The translations under genes were made by a program, and so were the position numbers. Source: Nitrospirota bacterium (GTDB lineage: Bacteria > Nitrospirota > Nitrospiria > Nitrospirales > Nitrospiraceae). Taken from it: DNA of 64,000 nt. Shown here piece after piece: positions 35,606 to 44,930 of the stretch. The stretch is taken from positions 186,001 through 250,000 of the forward strand of contig JAPLLG010000007.1 of assembly GCA_026387665.1 (NCBI GenBank), read 5' to 3'. Each line of letters opens with the position of its first letter. Positions within the stretch are counted from its first letter, which is position 1. The notes beneath the pieces were generated by a model. The model had not been told where the DNA came from, did no database searches, and worked only from the letters and a program-made list of their open reading frames with translations.

Positions 35606-36679
35606 CTAGTTCAGATTTCGCAGAATGGCCTCGCCCATTTCCGTCGTACCGACGAGGCGAGTCCCGGGGCTATGAATATCTTTCGTGCGATAACCGAGCT
35701 CGAGGGTCTTTACGATCGCCTGCTCGATGGCCTCCGCTTCCTTGTCCAACTTGAACGCATAGGACAACAGCATGGCAGCCGAGGCAATCGTCGCAATAGG
35801 ATTCGCCACATTCTTCCCGGCAATGTCCGGCGCGCTACCATGAATCGGCTCGAACAATCCGACTTTCGCGCCAATACTGGCCGATGGCAACATGCCGATG
35901 GAGCCGGTCAACATCGCCGCTTCATCGCTCAGAATGTCGCCGAAGATATTATTACAAAGCATCACATCGAACTGCTTCGGGTTGCGCACGAGCTGCATCG
36001 CTGCATTGTCGACATAGATATGGCTCAACTCCACACCTTGATAATCTTTATGGGTCTCGATGACCACACGACGCCAGAGCTCGGACGATTCCAGCACATT
36101 CGCCTTATCGACGGACATCACTTTATTCCGACGTTTTCTCGCCGCCTCAAATGCCACTTTCGCAATCCGTTGGATTTCTTCCGTGGTATAGACCTCGGTA
36201 TTGAATCCTCGCTCGCTCCCGTTCGGCAGCTTCTCGATCCCTTTGGGTTTCCCGAAATAGATACCGCCGGTCAATTCACGAATGACGAGGATGTCGATCC
36301 CTTCGATCACCTCACGCTTCAACGTAGAGGCATCGGCCAACATCGGGTATAACTTTGCCGGGCGTAAATTCGCGTAGAGGCCCAGATGCTCGCGCAATCC
36401 CAATAAAGCTCGCTCCGGACGCAAGCTATATTCCAACCCCTCCCACTTGGGACCGCCGACCGCACCAAGCAACACGGCATCGCTCTGCTTGGCCAAGGTC
36501 AGGGTCTCCTGAGGAAGCGGCACCCCCACTTTATCGATAGCCTGCCCGCCGACATCGCCGGAAACGAACTCGAACTGGTGCTGGAACTTCTCGGCGACAG
36601 CCTTCAGTACTTTCACCGCTTCAGGCACGATCTCCCGACCCACTCCATCACCAGCTAATACGGCAATCTTCGCCTTCAC
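35606..36679 (-). CDS. leuB: 3-isopropylmalate dehydrogenase
   Basis: A 357-residue NAD-dependent decarboxylating dehydrogenase, the third step of leucine synthesis. It has the family start [20 protein letters not shown], the substrate arginines in [20 protein letters not shown], and the metal/NAD region [20 protein letters not shown] and [18 protein letters not shown]. It lies 41 bases after a small cupin gene and downstream of leuA. leuC and leuD are not in the window. Confidence 0.97.
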
Positions 36680-36720: not shown

Positions 36721-37149
36721 CTACTCCAGGACGTCCTCATCCTCCAGCCGCCAAGCTGGATCGACCAAACAGAGGAACTCGATGGCAGTGGATCCGCTAT
36801 TTTCTAGAGACTGCTTGCCTCCGGGAGGCACATAGACGACGGAGCCAGGTCCCACCGAGACGACCGAGTCATCCACAGTCAATCGCCCAGATCCGGCAAT
36901 AATGTAATAGACCTCTGAGGATGTCAGCCTGTGCCATTTCGAGCGAGCGCCGGGAGCCAAGGTCCCCTGCACCAGACTATACCCAACCGCGAGCGGTTGT
37001 TTGGCCGGATGCAGCAACTCCCGTAAGACAGTATGGTCGCCGGCCAGAAACTCCGGCCGATCTGCCAGGGTGACATGAACCACGGAGTGCCTCCCAGCCA
37101 ACAATATGTTCCCGCCCCAGGCTTGAGCCGGTGACTCTACCGTGGCCAC
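36721..37149 (-). CDS. Small cupin-domain protein
   Basis: A 142-residue single-domain cupin. The first motif is degenerate ([27 protein letters not shown] without the full G(x)5HxH), and the second is [21 protein letters not shown]. It resembles phosphomannose-isomerase-like cupins. Bound metal and function are unknown. It is five bases after leuA and 41 before leuB, so it is made with the leucine enzymes; a link to leucine synthesis is inference from position only. Confidence 0.8.
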
Positions 37150-37154
37150 TTTCG

Positions 37155-38702
37155 CTAAATCAAGTTCACCTTCTGCTCGCCCTGCGCCTGTTTTCCCGCC
37201 AAGTAGGAGAGCTTGTTCAGTGCGTTCAGATAGGCCCGCGCCGAGGCCATAATGATATCCGTATCTGCCCCATGCCCTGACACGGTGCGCCCCTCTTCCT
37301 GCACCCGGACCGAAACTTCGCCCTGGGCATCGGTCCCTCCCGTGATCGCCTTGACGGCATACATGAGGAGGGTGCTCTTCGTCTGCGTGATGGCGGCAAT
37401 CGTCCGATAGATAGCGTCCACCGGCCCGTCGCCGGTTCCAGTCTGCGTGACGGTGCGTCCGTCGAACTCGAGCTCGACCGTGGCGGTCGGCACCTGATCC
37501 GTCCCGCTAGCCACATGGAACGACTTCAAAGTGATCCGATCAGCCATTTTGGCCAGTTCTTCTGAGACAATGACTTCGAGATCCTCTTCGTAGATCTCTT
37601 TCTTCTGATCGGCCAGCTTCTTGAACCGCTCAAACGCGCGATTGACCTCCTCGTCCGAGAGCGTATAGCCCAACTCCACCAGCCTCTGCCGAAACGCGTG
37701 CCGCCCTGAGAGCTTCCCCATGACCATCTTGCTCTCGACCAGCCCGATCGTCTCCGGCTTCATGATTTCATAGGTCGTCTTGTCCTTCAGCAGCCCGTCC
37801 TGGTGGATGCCGGAGGTATGGGAGAAGGCGTTCGCCCCGACAATCGCCTTGTTGGGCTGCACCACCATGCCGGTGATCTTGCTGACCAATCGGCTGGTTT
37901 TCGCAATCTCTTCGGTATGAATCTTCGTATCGGCTTGATAGAAATCTTTCCTGGTCCTGAGCCCCATGACGATTTCTTCCAACGCCGTATTCCCCGCCCG
38001 TTCGCCGATTCCGTTGATCGTGCATTCAACCTGGCCCGCCCCTTCGTACACCGCCGCCAAACTGTTCCCTACGGCGAGGCCAAGGTCATTGTGGCAATGG
38101 ACGGAGATCACCGCCTGCGAACTGTTCGACACCTGTTCGCGAATGCCGCGAATGAGCTTGCCAAATTCCTGCGGCACCGCATAGCCGACTGTATCGGGGA
38201 TATTGATCGTCCCGGCTCCCGCGGCAATCACCGCCTCGATCACTTCATAGAGGTAGGCGGGGTCGGAACGGCTGGCATCCATGGGCGAGAATTCCACATC
38301 GTCCACGTAGCCCCTCGCCCGTTGCACCATCTCGACCGCGCGCTTCTTCGCCTCGTCGCGCGTCATTCTGAACTGGTGCTTCAAATGGATATCCGACGTC
38401 GAGAGAAACGTATGGATGCGGACCTTAGGCGCCCCCTTCAAGGCCTCCCAGGCCCGATCGATATCCTCCGGCCTTGCCCGCGCCAAGCTGCAAATCGTCG
38501 GCCCCTCGACCTCCTGCGCGATCCGCCGCACCGCTTCAAAATCTCCAGGCGAACTGTAGGCAAACCCCGCTTCGATGATATCCACCCCCAAGCGAGCCAG
38601 CTGCTTCGCCACCATGATCTTCTCTTCCACATTCATGCTGGCGCCAGGCGATTGCTCGCCATCGCGCAGAGTCGTATCGAAAATTCTGATCATCCTGGTC
38701 AT
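37155..38702 (-). CDS. leuA: 2-isopropylmalate synthase
   Basis: A 515-residue LeuA that condenses acetyl-CoA with 2-oxoisovalerate, the committed step to leucine. The HMGL-like barrel shows [16 protein letters not shown] and the metal-binding [32 protein letters not shown] precedes the C-terminal dimer domain that binds leucine (residues about 390-510). ATG 38702 has GGGGGA upstream; the longer frame enters a palindromic repeat. A T-box riboswitch at 38855-39110 precedes it, so expression probably answers to uncharged tRNA-Leu in addition to enzyme feedback. Confidence 0.97.
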
Positions 38703-38729
38703 GGTTTCCCCCTTCTCCCTATCGCTTTG

Positions 38730-38852
38730 AGGCTGCTCAAAGCGGTTGTCCAGCAAGGCCGCAGGCGATTCGAAACCGGAGGCGTACCCTCAGGGGTACG
38801 TTGAGGATTTCGATGAGCCGAGAACGACGCTGGCAGCCGCTTTCAGCGGCCG
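38730..38852. repeat. Palindromic repeat family B, copy 2 (inverted)
   Basis: The diverged arms (GGCTGCTCAAAGCGGTTGTC and GGCAGCCGCTTTCAGCGGCC) still pair with each other, and the centre has GGCGTACCCTCAGGGGTACG. The orientation is opposite to the copies at 8384 and 55327. It fills the space between the T-box terminator and the leuA start codon, so it lies within the leuA mRNA leader. Confidence 0.8.
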
Positions 38853-38854
38853 GC

Positions 38855-38895
38855 AAAACAAAAAGCCTCCATCCCCACGCCCAGGGACGGAGGCT
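38855..38895 (-). terminator. T-box intrinsic terminator
   Basis: Minus strand: AGCCTCCGTCCC pairs with GGGATGGAGGCT (one G-U pair) across the loop TGGGCGTG, followed by TTTTTGTTTTG. The left side of the stem starts just after the antiterminator, so the two structures exclude each other as in other T-boxes. Confidence 0.9.
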
Positions 38896-39110
38896 CGAGA
38901 AGCTCCGTGGTACCACCCTGATTCAGCTATGAACAACGTAGTGCTGCCCACAACCCTTCATTCCGCCTTATCACGGGGGCGAGACGGAATCCATTACTCG
39001 GGTTTCACGGATTCTGGCTCAGAGGCGAGTTCGGCAACGCACAGGCTGGTTTGCACCATCCACCAGCTCTCTCGATTTCTATGCGAGGTGCCTACTACTC
39101 CTCGTCGCAG
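38855..39110 (-). ncRNA. T-box riboswitch upstream of leuA
   Basis: On the minus strand the leader shows the T-box parts in order. GACGAGGAGTAGTAGG opens stem I. Its distal part has GAGAGAGCTGGTGG, then TGGTGCAAACCAGCC. A specifier-region sequence GAACTCGCCTC carries a CTC (Leu) triplet at 39027-39029. The universal antiterminator sequence AGGGTGGTACCACGG is at 38905-38919. A terminator follows. Such RNAs read through when uncharged tRNA pairs with the specifier and its CCA end with the bulge. The downstream gene is leuA, which agrees with a leucine specifier. The exact specifier needs a structural model. Confidence 0.88.
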
Positions 39111-39114
39111 CCTT

Positions 39115-39921
39115 CTAAAACTTCGATCCTGACACCGACTGCTCGGTCTTGCTCGGCGCCCGTTTCCCGGCCATCTTGGGTAGAAACCCGACGAGCCGTT
39201 CTGCCGGACCGAGCAGGGCATAGCCGGCAAAAATGACAAATAGCATGACCTGTGGCCAAGCGGCCACGAGCATGACGGCTAAAATTCCCCACACCAGATA
39301 AGTAATGTGACGACCGCCGCTAAACTTCATATCTTTAAAGCTTCGATACTTAATGGTGCTGACCATCAAGAACGACAGGGCCAACGTCATCACCAGAACG
39401 AGAATGGGCTTCACGTCCGCCGCAATCTTCATGCTGTAATGATCGAACACCACGAGCGAGGCCACGACCCCTGCCGCAGCAGGAATCGCCAAGCCAGTGA
39501 AGTACTTGCCGTCCGCCACAGCCGCTGTCGAATTAAACCGGGCCAACCGCACCGCACCCATCGCGACATAGGCAAACATCACGGCAATACCAAACGTCCC
39601 CTGTCCGCTTAGCGCCCAGGAGTACATCAAGAGGCCGGGAGCCACCCCGAACGACACCACATCGGACAACGAGTCGTACTCGAGGCCAAAATGGCTGGTG
39701 CTATTCGTCAACCGCGCAGATTTTCCATCGAGCACATCGAAGATCATCGCCACCAGAATGGCGATGGCTGCGATCAGGTAGTTCCCATTGAACACGGACA
39801 GGATCGAAAAGACGCCGCAAAAGAGATTCCCTGTCGTGAACAAATTCGGAATGAGATGCATGGCGGCTTTACGCCGCTTCCCATCTCGCCCGAACGATTG
39901 ACGAAGTCCGGTGGTTTTCAT
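39115..39921 (-). CDS. pssA: CDP-diacylglycerol-serine O-phosphatidyltransferase
   Basis: A 268-residue membrane enzyme that makes phosphatidylserine. The CDP-alcohol phosphotransferase motif is complete: DVLDGKSARLTNSTSHFG, then LEYDSLSD, with its four aspartates. About seven hydrophobic segments follow the start MHLIPNLFTTGNLFCGVFSI. It overlaps psd by ATGA, so the two steps to phosphatidylethanolamine are coupled. It ends directly before the leuA T-box. Confidence 0.95.
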   Translation of the reverse strand: MKTTGLRQSFGRDGKRRKAAMHLIPNLFTTGNLFCGVFSILSVFNGNYLIAAIAILVAMIFDVLDGKSARLTNSTSHFGLEYDSLSDVVSFGVAPGLLMYSWALSGQGTFGIAVMFAYVAMGAVRLARFNSTAAVADGKYFTGLAIPAAAGVVASLVVFDHYSMKIAADVKPILVLVMTLALSFLMVSTIKYRSFKDMKFSGGRHITYLVWGILAVMLVAAWPQVMLFVIFAGYALLGPAERLVGFLPKMAGKRAPSKTEQSVSGSKF

Positions 39922-40568
39922 CGCAGCTCTCCTAAGATGGTCTCTCCACCCTTCACCCGATCGCCGACGGCAACTGTGATCGCCGTCCCGATCGGCAGAA
40001 ACGTATCCATCCGCGACCCGAATCGAATCAACCCGTATCGTTCACCACAGACAGCCCGGGCGCCCGGCGAGATCCAACAGACGATCCGTCTCGCAATCAA
40101 CCCGGCCACCTGCACACAGAGCACCTTTGCTCCCTGCGCCGTCCTGATCATCAAAGCATTTTGCTCGTTCCGCAACGTCGCATCAGGCCTGCTGGCCACG
40201 AGAAACAAACCCGGCTGATACTGCACATCCTCGACGACCCCTTCGCAGGGGATCCGATTGATGTGCACATCGAACACGTTCAAAAATATCGTGACGCGAA
40301 TGCTGCGATCCTTGATAAATCGCGGCTCGAACTCTTCTTCGATGGCGATGACTTTTCCATCACCCGGCGCCACGATGAGACCAGGCCCTTGCGGCACCAC
40401 TCGAGCGGGATTGCGAAAAAACCAGGCGACAAAGAGCGTCAGGAGCGCCCCGCCGACCGCCGCAATAATCCCACCCAGCCATCCTGCTAGCAGTGTAACG
40501 CCAACAGCAGCCCCGATGAAGGGAATTCCTTCTTTGGCAAACGGGATGCCGACGGCACGATCTGCCAC
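39918..40568 (-). CDS. psd: Phosphatidylserine decarboxylase, Psd-A type
   Basis: A 216-residue proenzyme that converts phosphatidylserine to phosphatidylethanolamine. The short form has two hydrophobic N-terminal helices, then FRNPARVVPQGPGLIVAPGD and NVFDVHINRIPCEG with the conserved histidine. The self-cleavage site is Gly184-Ser185 (IRFGSRMD), where Ser becomes the pyruvoyl group. It overlaps pssA and follows ilvC by 14 bases, so lipid genes are embedded in a branched-chain amino-acid cluster. Confidence 0.95.
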   Translation of the reverse strand: MADRAVGIPFAKEGIPFIGAAVGVTLLAGWLGGIIAAVGGALLTLFVAWFFRNPARVVPQGPGLIVAPGDGKVIAIEEEFEPRFIKDRSIRVTIFLNVFDVHINRIPCEGVVEDVQYQPGLFLVASRPDATLRNEQNALMIRTAQGAKVLCVQVAGLIARRIVCWISPGARAVCGERYGLIRFGSRMDTFLPIGTAITVAVGDRVKGGETILGELR

Positions 40569-40582
40569 AGAAACCTCGTTTC

Positions 40583-41599
<1,017 letters not shown>

Positions 41600-41659: not shown

Positions 41660-42184
41660 CTATTCGCGGACAGCCTTTTTCGCCGGCACGCTCGTCGCGC
41701 GAATCGACTCGCGGGCGACCGCAACACGTCCGGTCCGCGTGAGTTCTTTGATGCCGAGTGGCTGCAGCAGGTTGATGATCGCTTCGATCTTATGGGGATC
41801 GCCGGTCACCTCAATAGTATAGGTCGCCGGCGTGGAGTCGATGACATTGGCCCGGAAAATATCGGCAATCCGCAACGCTTCCGCACGATCCTCCGGCCTC
41901 GTATGCACTTTGATCAGGGCCGTCTCCCGCGAGACAAAATCGCTCTCGTTCAAATCCACAACCTTGATGACATCGATCAGCTTATTGAGCTGCTTCACGA
42001 TCTGTTCAATGATCCGGTCGTCTCCGGACGTGACGATGGTCATCTGCGACATGGAGGGATCCAGCGTCGGCGCCACCGAGAGACTTTCAATATTGAATCC
42101 GCGTCCGCTGAACAAGCCGGCGACGCGAGACAGGGACCCGAATTTATTCTCGACGGTCACCGAAATAATATGTTCCATACCCAA
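41660..42184 (-). CDS. ilvH: Acetolactate synthase small subunit
   Basis: A 174-residue regulatory subunit. The N-terminal ACT domain (VENKFGSLSRVAGLFSGRGF then NIESLSVAPT) binds valine and controls the large subunit encoded 22 bases upstream; the C-terminal domain has VDSTPATYTIEVTGDPHKIE. The length is standard for the full two-domain form. Confidence 0.96.
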   Translation of the reverse strand: MGMEHIISVTVENKFGSLSRVAGLFSGRGFNIESLSVAPTLDPSMSQMTIVTSGDDRIIEQIVKQLNKLIDVIKVVDLNESDFVSRETALIKVHTRPEDRAEALRIADIFRANVIDSTPATYTIEVTGDPHKIEAIINLLQPLGIKELTRTGRVAVARESIRATSVPAKKAVRE

Positions 42185-42206: not shown

Positions 42207-43982
42207 TTAGGCCGTGAGAATCGTGTCCGAATCCTTCGGAGTCACCTGCCCCGATCCAGCCTGTTTCGTTTTCAAATGCGGCGGATCTTCCAAAATCATC
42301 TCATGATTGCTGCCGCCGGCAGGAATCATCGGATAGACGTTTTCATAGCGATAGGTCGGCACATCGACGATCACCGGCCGGTTCACCGCAATCGCTTCCT
42401 TGAGGACATCGTCGATCTCCGACGGCTTGCTAGCCCGGAGCCCGACCGCTCCATAGGCCTCAGCCAACTTCACAAAGTCCGGCGTCGTCTCCAGATCGCT
42501 CGAGGCATACCGTCCTTCGTAGAAGAGATCCTGCCATTGCCGGACCATCCCGTGGAATCGGTTATTGAGCACGATGATCTTGACCGGCAGCTTATGCACC
42601 ACCGCCGTCGCCATTTCCTGCATATTCATCTGAATACTGCCGTCACCGGCAATGCAAAGGACCAGCCGGCCTGGAAAGGCCGCTTGCGCCCCCATGGCGG
42701 CGGGGAATCCAAAGCCCATGGTTCCGAGCCCGCCAGAGGTCAACCAGCGATTGGGCTTCGCCAATTTAAAGTACTGGGCGGCCCACATCTGGTGTTGTCC
42801 GACATCGGTCGAGACGATCGGGTCCATATCCTTCGTCAGTTCATAGAGCCGCTTGATGACATGCTGCGGCTTAATCGGCCCCTCCGCTGCCTGCTGATAG
42901 GCCAGCGGATTCGCCTGCTGCCATTCGCGGATCTGATTCCACCAGGGCTTGCGCAATTCCCGTTGATCGCCGTTCACTGTAGCGCGCAAAATCTGGATCA
43001 GCTCGCGCAACACCGTTTTGCAGTCGCCGACGATGGGAATGTCGACATTGACATTCTTCCTGATCGAAGTCGGATCGATATCGATATGAATGACCTTGGC
43101 ATGAGGACAAAACTCGGAGACCTTGCCGGTGACGCGATCGTCAAACCGCGCGCCAATCGCCACAACCAGGTCGGAGTAATGCATGACCATGTTCGCCCAA
43201 TAGGTACCATGCATGCCCAGCATGCCCATGGACTGGGGATGTTCGCCGGGGAAGGCCCCCAGCCCCATCAAGGTCATGTCGACCGGCATATGAGTCAGTT
43301 CGGCCAACTCCATCAACTCTTGCGAGGCACCGGAGAAGACGACGCCGCCGCCGACATACAACACCGGCTTCTTCGCCTTCGTCATGGCCTCAGCCGCCTG
43401 CTTAATCTGCCACTTATTGCCTTCATACACAGGATTGTAGCTGCGGATGGAGACGGAGCTCGGATAGGTAAATTCCGCCTTGTCCATGGAGACGTCTTTC
43501 GGAATGTCCACTAACACAGGACCGGGCCGCCCCGTCGTCGCAATGTAGAAGGCTTCCTTGATCGTCGTCGCCAAATCGGCCACGTCTTTTACGAGAAAAT
43601 TGTACTTGGTGCAGGGGCGGCTCAAACCGATATTATCCGCCTCTTGGAACGCATCGTTCCCGATCAGGCTGGTCGGAACTTGGCCCGTAAAACAGACCAG
43701 CGGCACAGAGTCCATATAGGCATCGGCCAACGCCGTAATCACGTTCGTCATGCCTGGTCCTGAGGTCACCAGGCAGACTCCGGCTTTCCCGGTCGCCTTG
43801 GCATAACCTTCCGCCATATGGCCGGCGCCCTGCTCATGGCGCGTCAGGACCACCTCAATATCCTTTTGCTGGTGCAGCATATCGAAAATCTTCAGCACGA
43901 CACCGCCAGGAAGCGCGAAAATCGTCTTCACGCCTTCCCGTTTGAGACATTCGATGAGGATTTCAGCGCCTGTGAGCTTCAT
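42207..43982 (-). CDS. ilvB: Acetolactate synthase large subunit
   Basis: A 591-residue thiamine-diphosphate enzyme, the first common step of branched-chain amino-acid synthesis. It has the N-terminal Pyr domain with the catalytic Glu (VVLTRHEQGAGHMAEGYAKA), the central FAD-type domain, and the C-terminal TPP motif GDGSIQMNMQEMATAV followed by NNRFHGMVRQWQ. ATG 43982 has GGAGG seven bases upstream; the longer frame is not conserved. It heads a long minus-strand run that continues through ilvH, ilvC, psd and pssA. Confidence 0.97.
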   Translation of the reverse strand: MKLTGAEILIECLKREGVKTIFALPGGVVLKIFDMLHQQKDIEVVLTRHEQGAGHMAEGYAKATGKAGVCLVTSGPGMTNVITALADAYMDSVPLVCFTGQVPTSLIGNDAFQEADNIGLSRPCTKYNFLVKDVADLATTIKEAFYIATTGRPGPVLVDIPKDVSMDKAEFTYPSSVSIRSYNPVYEGNKWQIKQAAEAMTKAKKPVLYVGGGVVFSGASQELMELAELTHMPVDMTLMGLGAFPGEHPQSMGMLGMHGTYWANMVMHYSDLVVAIGARFDDRVTGKVSEFCPHAKVIHIDIDPTSIRKNVNVDIPIVGDCKTVLRELIQILRATVNGDQRELRKPWWNQIREWQQANPLAYQQAAEGPIKPQHVIKRLYELTKDMDPIVSTDVGQHQMWAAQYFKLAKPNRWLTSGGLGTMGFGFPAAMGAQAAFPGRLVLCIAGDGSIQMNMQEMATAVVHKLPVKIIVLNNRFHGMVRQWQDLFYEGRYASSDLETTPDFVKLAEAYGAVGLRASKPSEIDDVLKEAIAVNRPVIVDVPTYRYENVYPMIPAGGSNHEMILEDPPHLKTKQAGSGQVTPKDSDTILTA

Positions 43983-44088
43983 GACAGAACCTCCATCCAT
44001 CCCGCCCGTGAAAATCAGGCGGAGGAATCGATACAATAGGCAACGAAACGGCTTGGCCTAACAGACCAGACACGAGTCCCTCGATATC

Positions 44089-44102
44089 TCAGAACGTTCT
44101 GA
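44089..44102. promoter_or_regulatory. 14-bp palindrome upstream of ilvB
   Basis: TCAGAACGTTCTGA is a perfect palindrome about 107 bases before the ilvB start, in the 267-base region between ilvB and the divergent glutaredoxin-like gene. It may be a regulator site; the regulator is not identifiable. Confidence 0.35.
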
Positions 44103-44249
44103 AAAATCAGGGATAAAGATCCATAATCCTATCACCACATATTTCACCGCGTCAATAGTGCCGCGGCTTTGGCCCCTCTCCTGACAGTCTCCCTCTTAGC
44201 ATGATATCCTTCGTGCCCACCCTCATCCGTTGGTCTGAGTCGCGACAAT

Positions 44250-44558
44250 ATGAGCCTGCCAGTCCATATCACCATCCTGTCCCGCGACGAATGCCATCTC
44301 TGCGATGTCATCTACCGGATTGCGACCCATCTCCAGTCCGAAATGAACATCACGACGAGCAAAGTGAGAATTGAGGGAGATCAGGCCCTGACGGAACGGT
44401 ACGGGGCAAGGATTCCCGTCGTGCTACTCGATGAGATCGAGTATTGCTCGGGGAAAGTGACAGAAGGGGAACTGCGCCGAGCGATAAAAAAAGCGCGGTG
44501 GAGAAGACCTATAAGCCGGATTCTGTCCCGCATGGGATATGGTCCCACACGGGGGTGA
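44250..44558 (+). CDS. Glutaredoxin-like protein (DUF836 type)
   Basis: A 102-residue thioredoxin-fold protein with the redox motif C-H-L-C (SRDECHLCDVI) near the first helix and a cis-proline (ARIPVVLLDE), like the small glutaredoxin/DUF836 proteins. It should carry out dithiol exchange in the cytoplasm. Its last 20 or so codons (from about RWRRPISRI) overlap, on the opposite strand, the 3' end of the RNase P RNA gene, so the conserved protein may effectively end before that. No partner is evident. Confidence 0.8.
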   Translation: MSLPVHITILSRDECHLCDVIYRIATHLQSEMNITTSKVRIEGDQALTERYGARIPVVLLDEIEYCSGKVTEGELRRAIKKARWRRPISRILSRMGYGPTRG

Positions 44559-44930
44559 TCATTTCTCTGGGATTCGAGTCACCTCGAACCTCAAGCGACC
44601 TACCCGAAGACCTCGGCCGGGCCAGCCGGTCGCCGACTTTCCGAAGAAAGCCGACAGGTGTCTTCCTATTTGGCCTTGCATCAGGCGACGCTTACCGTGC
44701 CAGTGATGTTACCACCACCGCGGTGGGCTCTTACCCCGCCGTTTCACCCTTACCTGATCCGCAGCGACAAGACTTGCATCTCATCGCCTCGGCCATCGGC
44801 GGTTTGTTCTCTGTGGTGCTGGTGTCGGATCGCTCCGCCTGGGAATTACCCAGCGCCCTGCCCATGAAGTCCGGACTTTCCTCTAAGAGCGTTGCCGCCC
44901 CAAGCGATCACCCGGTCCTCTCCCTCGCGC
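44490..44930 (-). ncRNA. rnpB: RNase P RNA (class A)
   Basis: The catalytic RNA of RNase P, which trims tRNA 5' leaders. On the minus strand the universal elements are present: GAGGAAAGTCCGGACTTC with GGGCAGGGCGCTGGGTAATT (CR-I area), GGTAAGGGTGAAACGGCGGG with GTAAGAGCCCACCGCGG (CR-II/III area), and the 3' AGAATCCGGCTTATAGGTC. P1 is formed by GGAGAGGACC at 44914-44923 and GGTCTTCTCC at 44500-44509. A T-run at 44485-44491 marks the 3' end. Total length about 440, normal for type A. Confidence 0.95.

Follow-up and report, generated by a model that had tools for sequence, protein, structure and literature searches.

A leucine T-box at the pssA–leuA junction of Nitrospira, a candidate branch-point attenuator within the ilvB–leuB gene cluster

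Introduction

Nitrospira are a main group of nitrite oxidisers, and T-boxes are usually credited to Gram-positive bacteria. T-boxes upstream of leuA were reported for Geobacter and Pelobacter in 2008 (PMC2494555), and the Geobacter leuA T-box was assigned to tRNA-Leu(GAG) in 2009 (PMC2700814). A leuA T-box reading tRNA-Leu(GAG) is thus of a type already known from Geobacter. The T-box described here resembles that of Geobacter in its family, in its target gene leuA, in the CUC specifier of the Geobacter loci that were read, and in the assignment to tRNA-Leu(GAG). At one Geobacter locus (L125), ilvN-ilvC-psd-pssA are also found upstream. In contrast, there is a clear dedicated promoter before the Geobacter T-boxes, and Geobacter LeuA belongs to another clade.

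A second point of comparison is the ilv-leu leader of B. subtilis, in which a T-box likewise senses tRNA-Leu for branched-chain synthesis genes (described in PMC12452182). There, one T-box controls ilvBNC and leuABCD jointly, whereas the Nitrospira T-box separates the common genes from the leucine-only ones. What is unusual in Nitrospira is this internal, apparently promoterless placement. A literature search found no description of a Nitrospira T-box, although earlier T-box surveys beyond its reach might mention one, and a search for internal or intercistronic T-boxes found nothing relevant.

Identity and anatomy of the T-box

The window, being the whole stretch of 64,000 nucleotides that was analysed, comes from a host that on sequence is a Nitrospira, nearest N. 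lenta; its LeuA is 96 % identical to that of a Nitrospira lenta MAG, in keeping with the Nitrospirota host of the original prediction. All features of the window described below are on the minus strand, with positions in ascending order. The covariance model of Rfam family RF00230 matches the window at 38880–39117 over its full length (model positions 1–219; 93.1 bits, E = 4.6e-19), a score with a thin margin above the gathering score of 93. This is the only T-box in the whole 2.64 Mb genome. Its features are those of a canonical transcription-type, class I T-box (RF00230).

Stem I (39016–39112), placed by the Rfam alignment and by covariation, contains base helices, the specifier loop and a distal double T-loop module. 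Both T-loops of this elbow-binding module, AGAGA (39068–39072) and UGCAA (39051–39055), agree with the consensus AGAGA/UGxRA (PMC7583486). The alignment and the sequence place the specifier CUC (Leu) at 39027–39029, in the context GAA-CUC-G-CC. It is followed by stem II (38987–39014; Rfam alignment and covariation) and by the antiterminator AGGGUGGUACCACGGAG...CUCCGUCCCU (38883–38919; Rfam alignment and covariation), which holds the conserved T-box core AGGGUGGUACCACGG at 38905–38919, with a UGGU bulge (38912–38915) that matches the tRNA discriminator end. The intrinsic terminator AGCCUCCGUCCC...GGGAUGGAGGCU with its U-run (38860–38895) was found by terminator scan and by covariation, and its helix has 12 pairs. 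The window T-box has an antiterminator and an intrinsic terminator that are mutually exclusive.

The original prediction of a T-box at 38855–39110 is borne out by the full-length covariance-model match and by a fold that covaries in 38 relatives, and its span is correct to within about 10 bases. The parts that it named were all recovered: the antiterminator motif AGGGTGGTACCACGG at 38905–38919, the full terminator (38864–38895, U-run 38860–38864), the typical distal stem I, the CTC (Leu) specifier, and leuA as the downstream gene (ATG at 38702). Its remark that leuA T-boxes are rarer outside Firmicutes and Actinobacteria is fair, given that those of Geobacter and Pelobacter were already in print. 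It overlooked that the element lies within a gene cluster, has no recognisable promoter of its own and probably does not head a leuA transcript.

Specifier and tRNA

The specifier CUC, the tRNA-Leu(GAG) of the host and the downstream gene leuA all agree. Among the long-arm tRNA genes of the genome, ARAGORN identified five leucine tRNAs, with anticodons UAA, UAG, CAG, CAA, and GAG. The tRNA-Leu(GAG) gene, at G000:C13, about 36387–36470, supplies in the same genome the partner that had been proposed. Its 3′ end is ...GCACCA, therefore pairing of the terminal ACCA with the UGGU of the T-box is possible. Since all five leucine tRNAs end in ACCA, the specifier must be the main basis for telling them apart.

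CUC is the usual leucine specifier in the T-box database, in 0.77 of Leu cases (PMC7778990). It was also found in every T-box locus examined here except two (L002 and L046), which have CUG although their genomes still encode both the GAG and the CAG leucine tRNAs. A CUG specifier was also considered for L040 and L064 and rejected, as the pattern had picked a later GAACTG and the true specifier is CUC.

Covariation of the fold and the switch

The alignment comprised 38 sequences that were pairwise less than 90 % identical in a preliminary alignment. In stems I and II, 95.6 % of cells are paired, with changes on both sides in 22 out of 29 pairs; for stem II, this is 5 out of 6. The covariation score of stems I and II was 0.475, against 0.199 for shuffled and at most 0.116 for slid controls; because the window sequence served as the template for the structures, they have an advantage over the slid controls, and relatedness among the sequences is lost in the shuffles. 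The antiterminator is paired in 98.4 % of cells and the terminator in 94.3 %. Alignment column 293, common to both helices, is C or U and pairs with column 271 in the antiterminator and column 336 in the terminator in all 38 sequences, as expected of two exclusive structures. Covariation among relatives thus supports both the fold and a switch in which the antiterminator and the terminator would exclude each other.

The borderline Rfam score could be taken as a sign of a decayed T-box that has lost its tRNA response. All functional positions are retained, however, covariation is kept across the phylum, and a T-box is present in all 79 genomes sampled from the same family, making decay extremely improbable.

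The T-box might instead control the translation of leuA, as the leader runs for about 158 bases beyond the terminator and has a strong palindrome there. A class II T-box would have a sequestrator over the ribosome binding site in place of the terminator; no such arrangement was found here, as the terminator with its U-run ends about 158 bases upstream of the start of leuA. The palindrome is a copy of a genomic repeat (38723–38851; fold z = −3.5) and stops short of the leuA ribosome site, whereas the 12-pair terminator with its U-run is conserved and covaries with the antiterminator. Control of translation is therefore very unlikely. The repeat itself is an imperfect palindrome of about 120 bases, with 40 full or partial copies scored out of 183 candidates genome-wide, and in many Nitrospiraceae a copy lies directly 3′ of the leuA T-box terminator.

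The gene cluster

The order on the minus strand is ilvB-ilvN-ilvC-psd-pssA-[T-box]-leuA-cupin-leuB. On the basis of open reading frames and conserved order, the genes upstream of the T-box are ilvB (42207–44036, its start probably being the internal ATG at residue 19), ilvN (41660–42184), ilvC (40583–41596), a phosphatidylserine decarboxylase-like psd (39918–40568), and a phosphatidylserine synthase-like pssA (39115–39921), which psd overlaps by 4 bases. The spacings from ilvB to pssA are 22, 63, 14, and −4 bases. Downstream, translation and homologues identify leuA (37155–38702), encoding 2-isopropylmalate synthase, the first leucine-only step. Its start is most likely the ATG at 38702, with a purine-rich ribosome site in front. 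It is followed by a putative cupin-like gene (36721–37149; the domain is named from sequence reading) and by leuB (35606–36679), both of which are open reading frames conserved in relatives. A class A RNase P RNA gene (44496–44923, minus strand) lies directly upstream of the cluster.

The pssA stop codon TAG (39115–39117) is 2 bases 5′ of the first stem I pair, and in Nitrospiraceae this stop is most often 0–6 bases 5′ of stem I. The gap between pssA and leuA is 279–453 nt in Nitrospiraceae with a T-box and mostly −25 to 127 nt in relatives that have the same cluster without a T-box core; L069 (336 nt) and L124 (519 nt) depart from this pattern, having long gaps but no T-box core. These gap lengths indicate that the T-box fills the pssA–leuA junction in a cluster that is compact elsewhere.

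Promoters and terminators

An extended −10 promoter, TTGACG-N18-TAGGAT (44126–44155), was found by scanning upstream of ilvB. As a positive control, a site was recovered within 300 bases before ilvB in all 36 Nitrospiraceae, usually of the form TTGAC(G/C)-N17/18-TGnTA(G/C)(G/C)AT. Within the stretch 44080–44155 (minus strand), just downstream of this promoter, is a perfect palindrome, TCAGAACGTTCTGA, conserved with changes in relatives, which is possibly an operator for some regulator.

No dedicated promoter was found before the Nitrospiraceae T-box by either of two approaches. Scanned for the sigma-70 consensus, the 120 bases 5′ of stem I had no site with at least nine matches in any of the 57 Nitrospiraceae loci. 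A matrix built from the ilvB sites scored no more than 6.8 bits over the 300 bases 5′ of the T-box, less than the 95th percentile of shuffled sequence (7.1), against a mean of 25 bits for the ilvB regions; as the matrix was trained on ilvB sites, the high ilvB score is partly built in, and it is the low T-box scores that carry the information. Between ilvB and leuA, the minus strand has no strong terminator other than that of the T-box. This evidence favours, but does not prove, a transcript that starts at the ilvB promoter and runs through the T-box.

The main rival explanation is that this is a working leucine T-box with an unrecognised promoter of its own in the 3′ part of pssA, so that leuA-leuB would form a separate unit and the T-box an ordinary leader. 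The same sigma-70 scan found sites before the T-box in 4 out of 4 Geobacter and 9 out of 14 other Nitrospirota loci, mostly about 45 bases before stem I and some inside pssA, and the missing sigma-70-like site in Nitrospiraceae may be compatible with another type of promoter inside pssA. However, none of the 57 Nitrospiraceae loci has such a site, while scan and matrix recover the ilvB promoter in 36 out of 36, and the genes from ilvB to pssA are no more than 63 bases apart or overlap. A separate leuA unit is therefore considered rather unlikely. The presence of a promoter right before the T-box in several relatives outside the family shows that independent transcription is an ancestral or alternative state.

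Distribution and variation in relatives

In the search of near relatives, the T-box was present in 29 out of 32 genomes of the genus, including its own, the three without it being 70–88 % complete, and in none of 24 order-mates outside the family. In the phylum-wide sample, every one of the 79 genus and family genomes had a T-box, as did four at class level and 11 at phylum level. At loci with both flanks in view, the T-box was between pssA and leuA.

A quick tree of LeuA proteins has several changes in T-box presence, at least six of them forced by supported branches; its count of nine changes is too high, since L184 was labelled as having no T-box and has one, with the core far from leuA. 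The T-box has therefore been gained or lost more than once. Joint transfer of leuA and its T-box from Geobacter is not supported, as the LeuA proteins fall in separate clades of this tree. It appears that leuA was not recently transferred together with the T-box, but the leader alone may have been.

Six out of seven genomes of one family of the same class (f9, three genera; L294–L299) have a T-box in which stem I is no more than a small capped hairpin (L298, for example, has GGUC-UAGA-GACC) and the distal T-loops are absent. All six retain the CUC specifier and the core, and their terminator has a T-rich tail; psd and pssA are upstream in five and leuA is downstream in all six. Four of these six genomes have a completeness of at least 95 %, and a tRNA-Leu(GAG) was found in each of the four. 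According to a review (PMC7583486), a long stem I bearing the elbow-binding module is generally needed in transcriptional T-boxes, and most translational ones are without the module; the six T-boxes would conflict with the view that this module is required for transcriptional control. They resemble the actinobacterial T-boxes with ultrashort stem I (Sherwood 2015, as described in PMC7583486) in lacking the distal elbow-binding module. The actinobacterial T-boxes act on translation, whereas L294–L299 carry intrinsic terminators and the window T-box has a full stem I.

Other variants were observed. Two leuA T-boxes (L189 and L190, family f15) have a full stem I and apparently no stem II. In L199, L200, and L203, a copy of the palindromic Nitrospira repeat interrupts the 5′ strand of stem I at a point between its base and its distal module, with the specifier and the distal module apparently intact. 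Genome G010 has a second, diverged leuA T-box (L198, G010:C115) with the core GGGTGGTGCC; this T-box may belong to another strain present in the assembly.

Proposed mechanism

It is probable that the tRNA-Leu(GAG)-sensing, terminating T-box is a branch-point attenuator inside an ilvBNC-psd-pssA-leuA-cupin-leuB transcript. This reading builds on features seen in the sequence and by comparison (the anatomy, the specifier with its matching tRNA, helices that exclude each other, a location kept among relatives, and a promoter at ilvB with none like it at the T-box), from which we infer tRNA binding, readthrough and a single transcript that spans the cluster. The RF00230 score, barely at the cut-off (93.1 versus 93), is a point against it.

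From the conserved ilvB promoter, RNA polymerase would transcribe the common branched-chain and phospholipid genes, and then the T-box. With tRNA-Leu(GAG) charged, the terminator (38860–38895) would form and leuA, the cupin-like gene, and leuB would go unread. When the tRNA is uncharged, its anticodon would pair with CUC and its terminal ACCA with UGGU, while its elbow would stack on the distal T-loops, so that the antiterminator would form and the leucine branch would be read. As the T-box is just ahead of the first leucine-only gene, leucine starvation probably switches on the leucine branch alone.

A wider proposal has two parts: that the Nitrospiraceae T-box lost its own promoter and became an attenuator in an ilvB–leuB transcript, with tRNA-Leu charging setting the split between common and leucine-only enzymes, and that the ortholog in the sister family (L294–L299) terminates transcription without an elbow-binding module. 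The chance that both hold is judged to be about even.

Biological significance

These findings would place leucine control in Nitrospira under a tRNA-sensing RNA that keeps to a single site throughout a phylum. Its position suggests a simple logic, in which the common branched-chain genes remain on and the leucine branch is gated. Through the orthologous series, with a full stem I, a stem I enlarged by a repeat, no stem II, or no distal module, the parts of a T-box may be compared at one locus and with one tRNA. The need for each part, including the elbow contact in transcriptional T-boxes, would thereby become testable.
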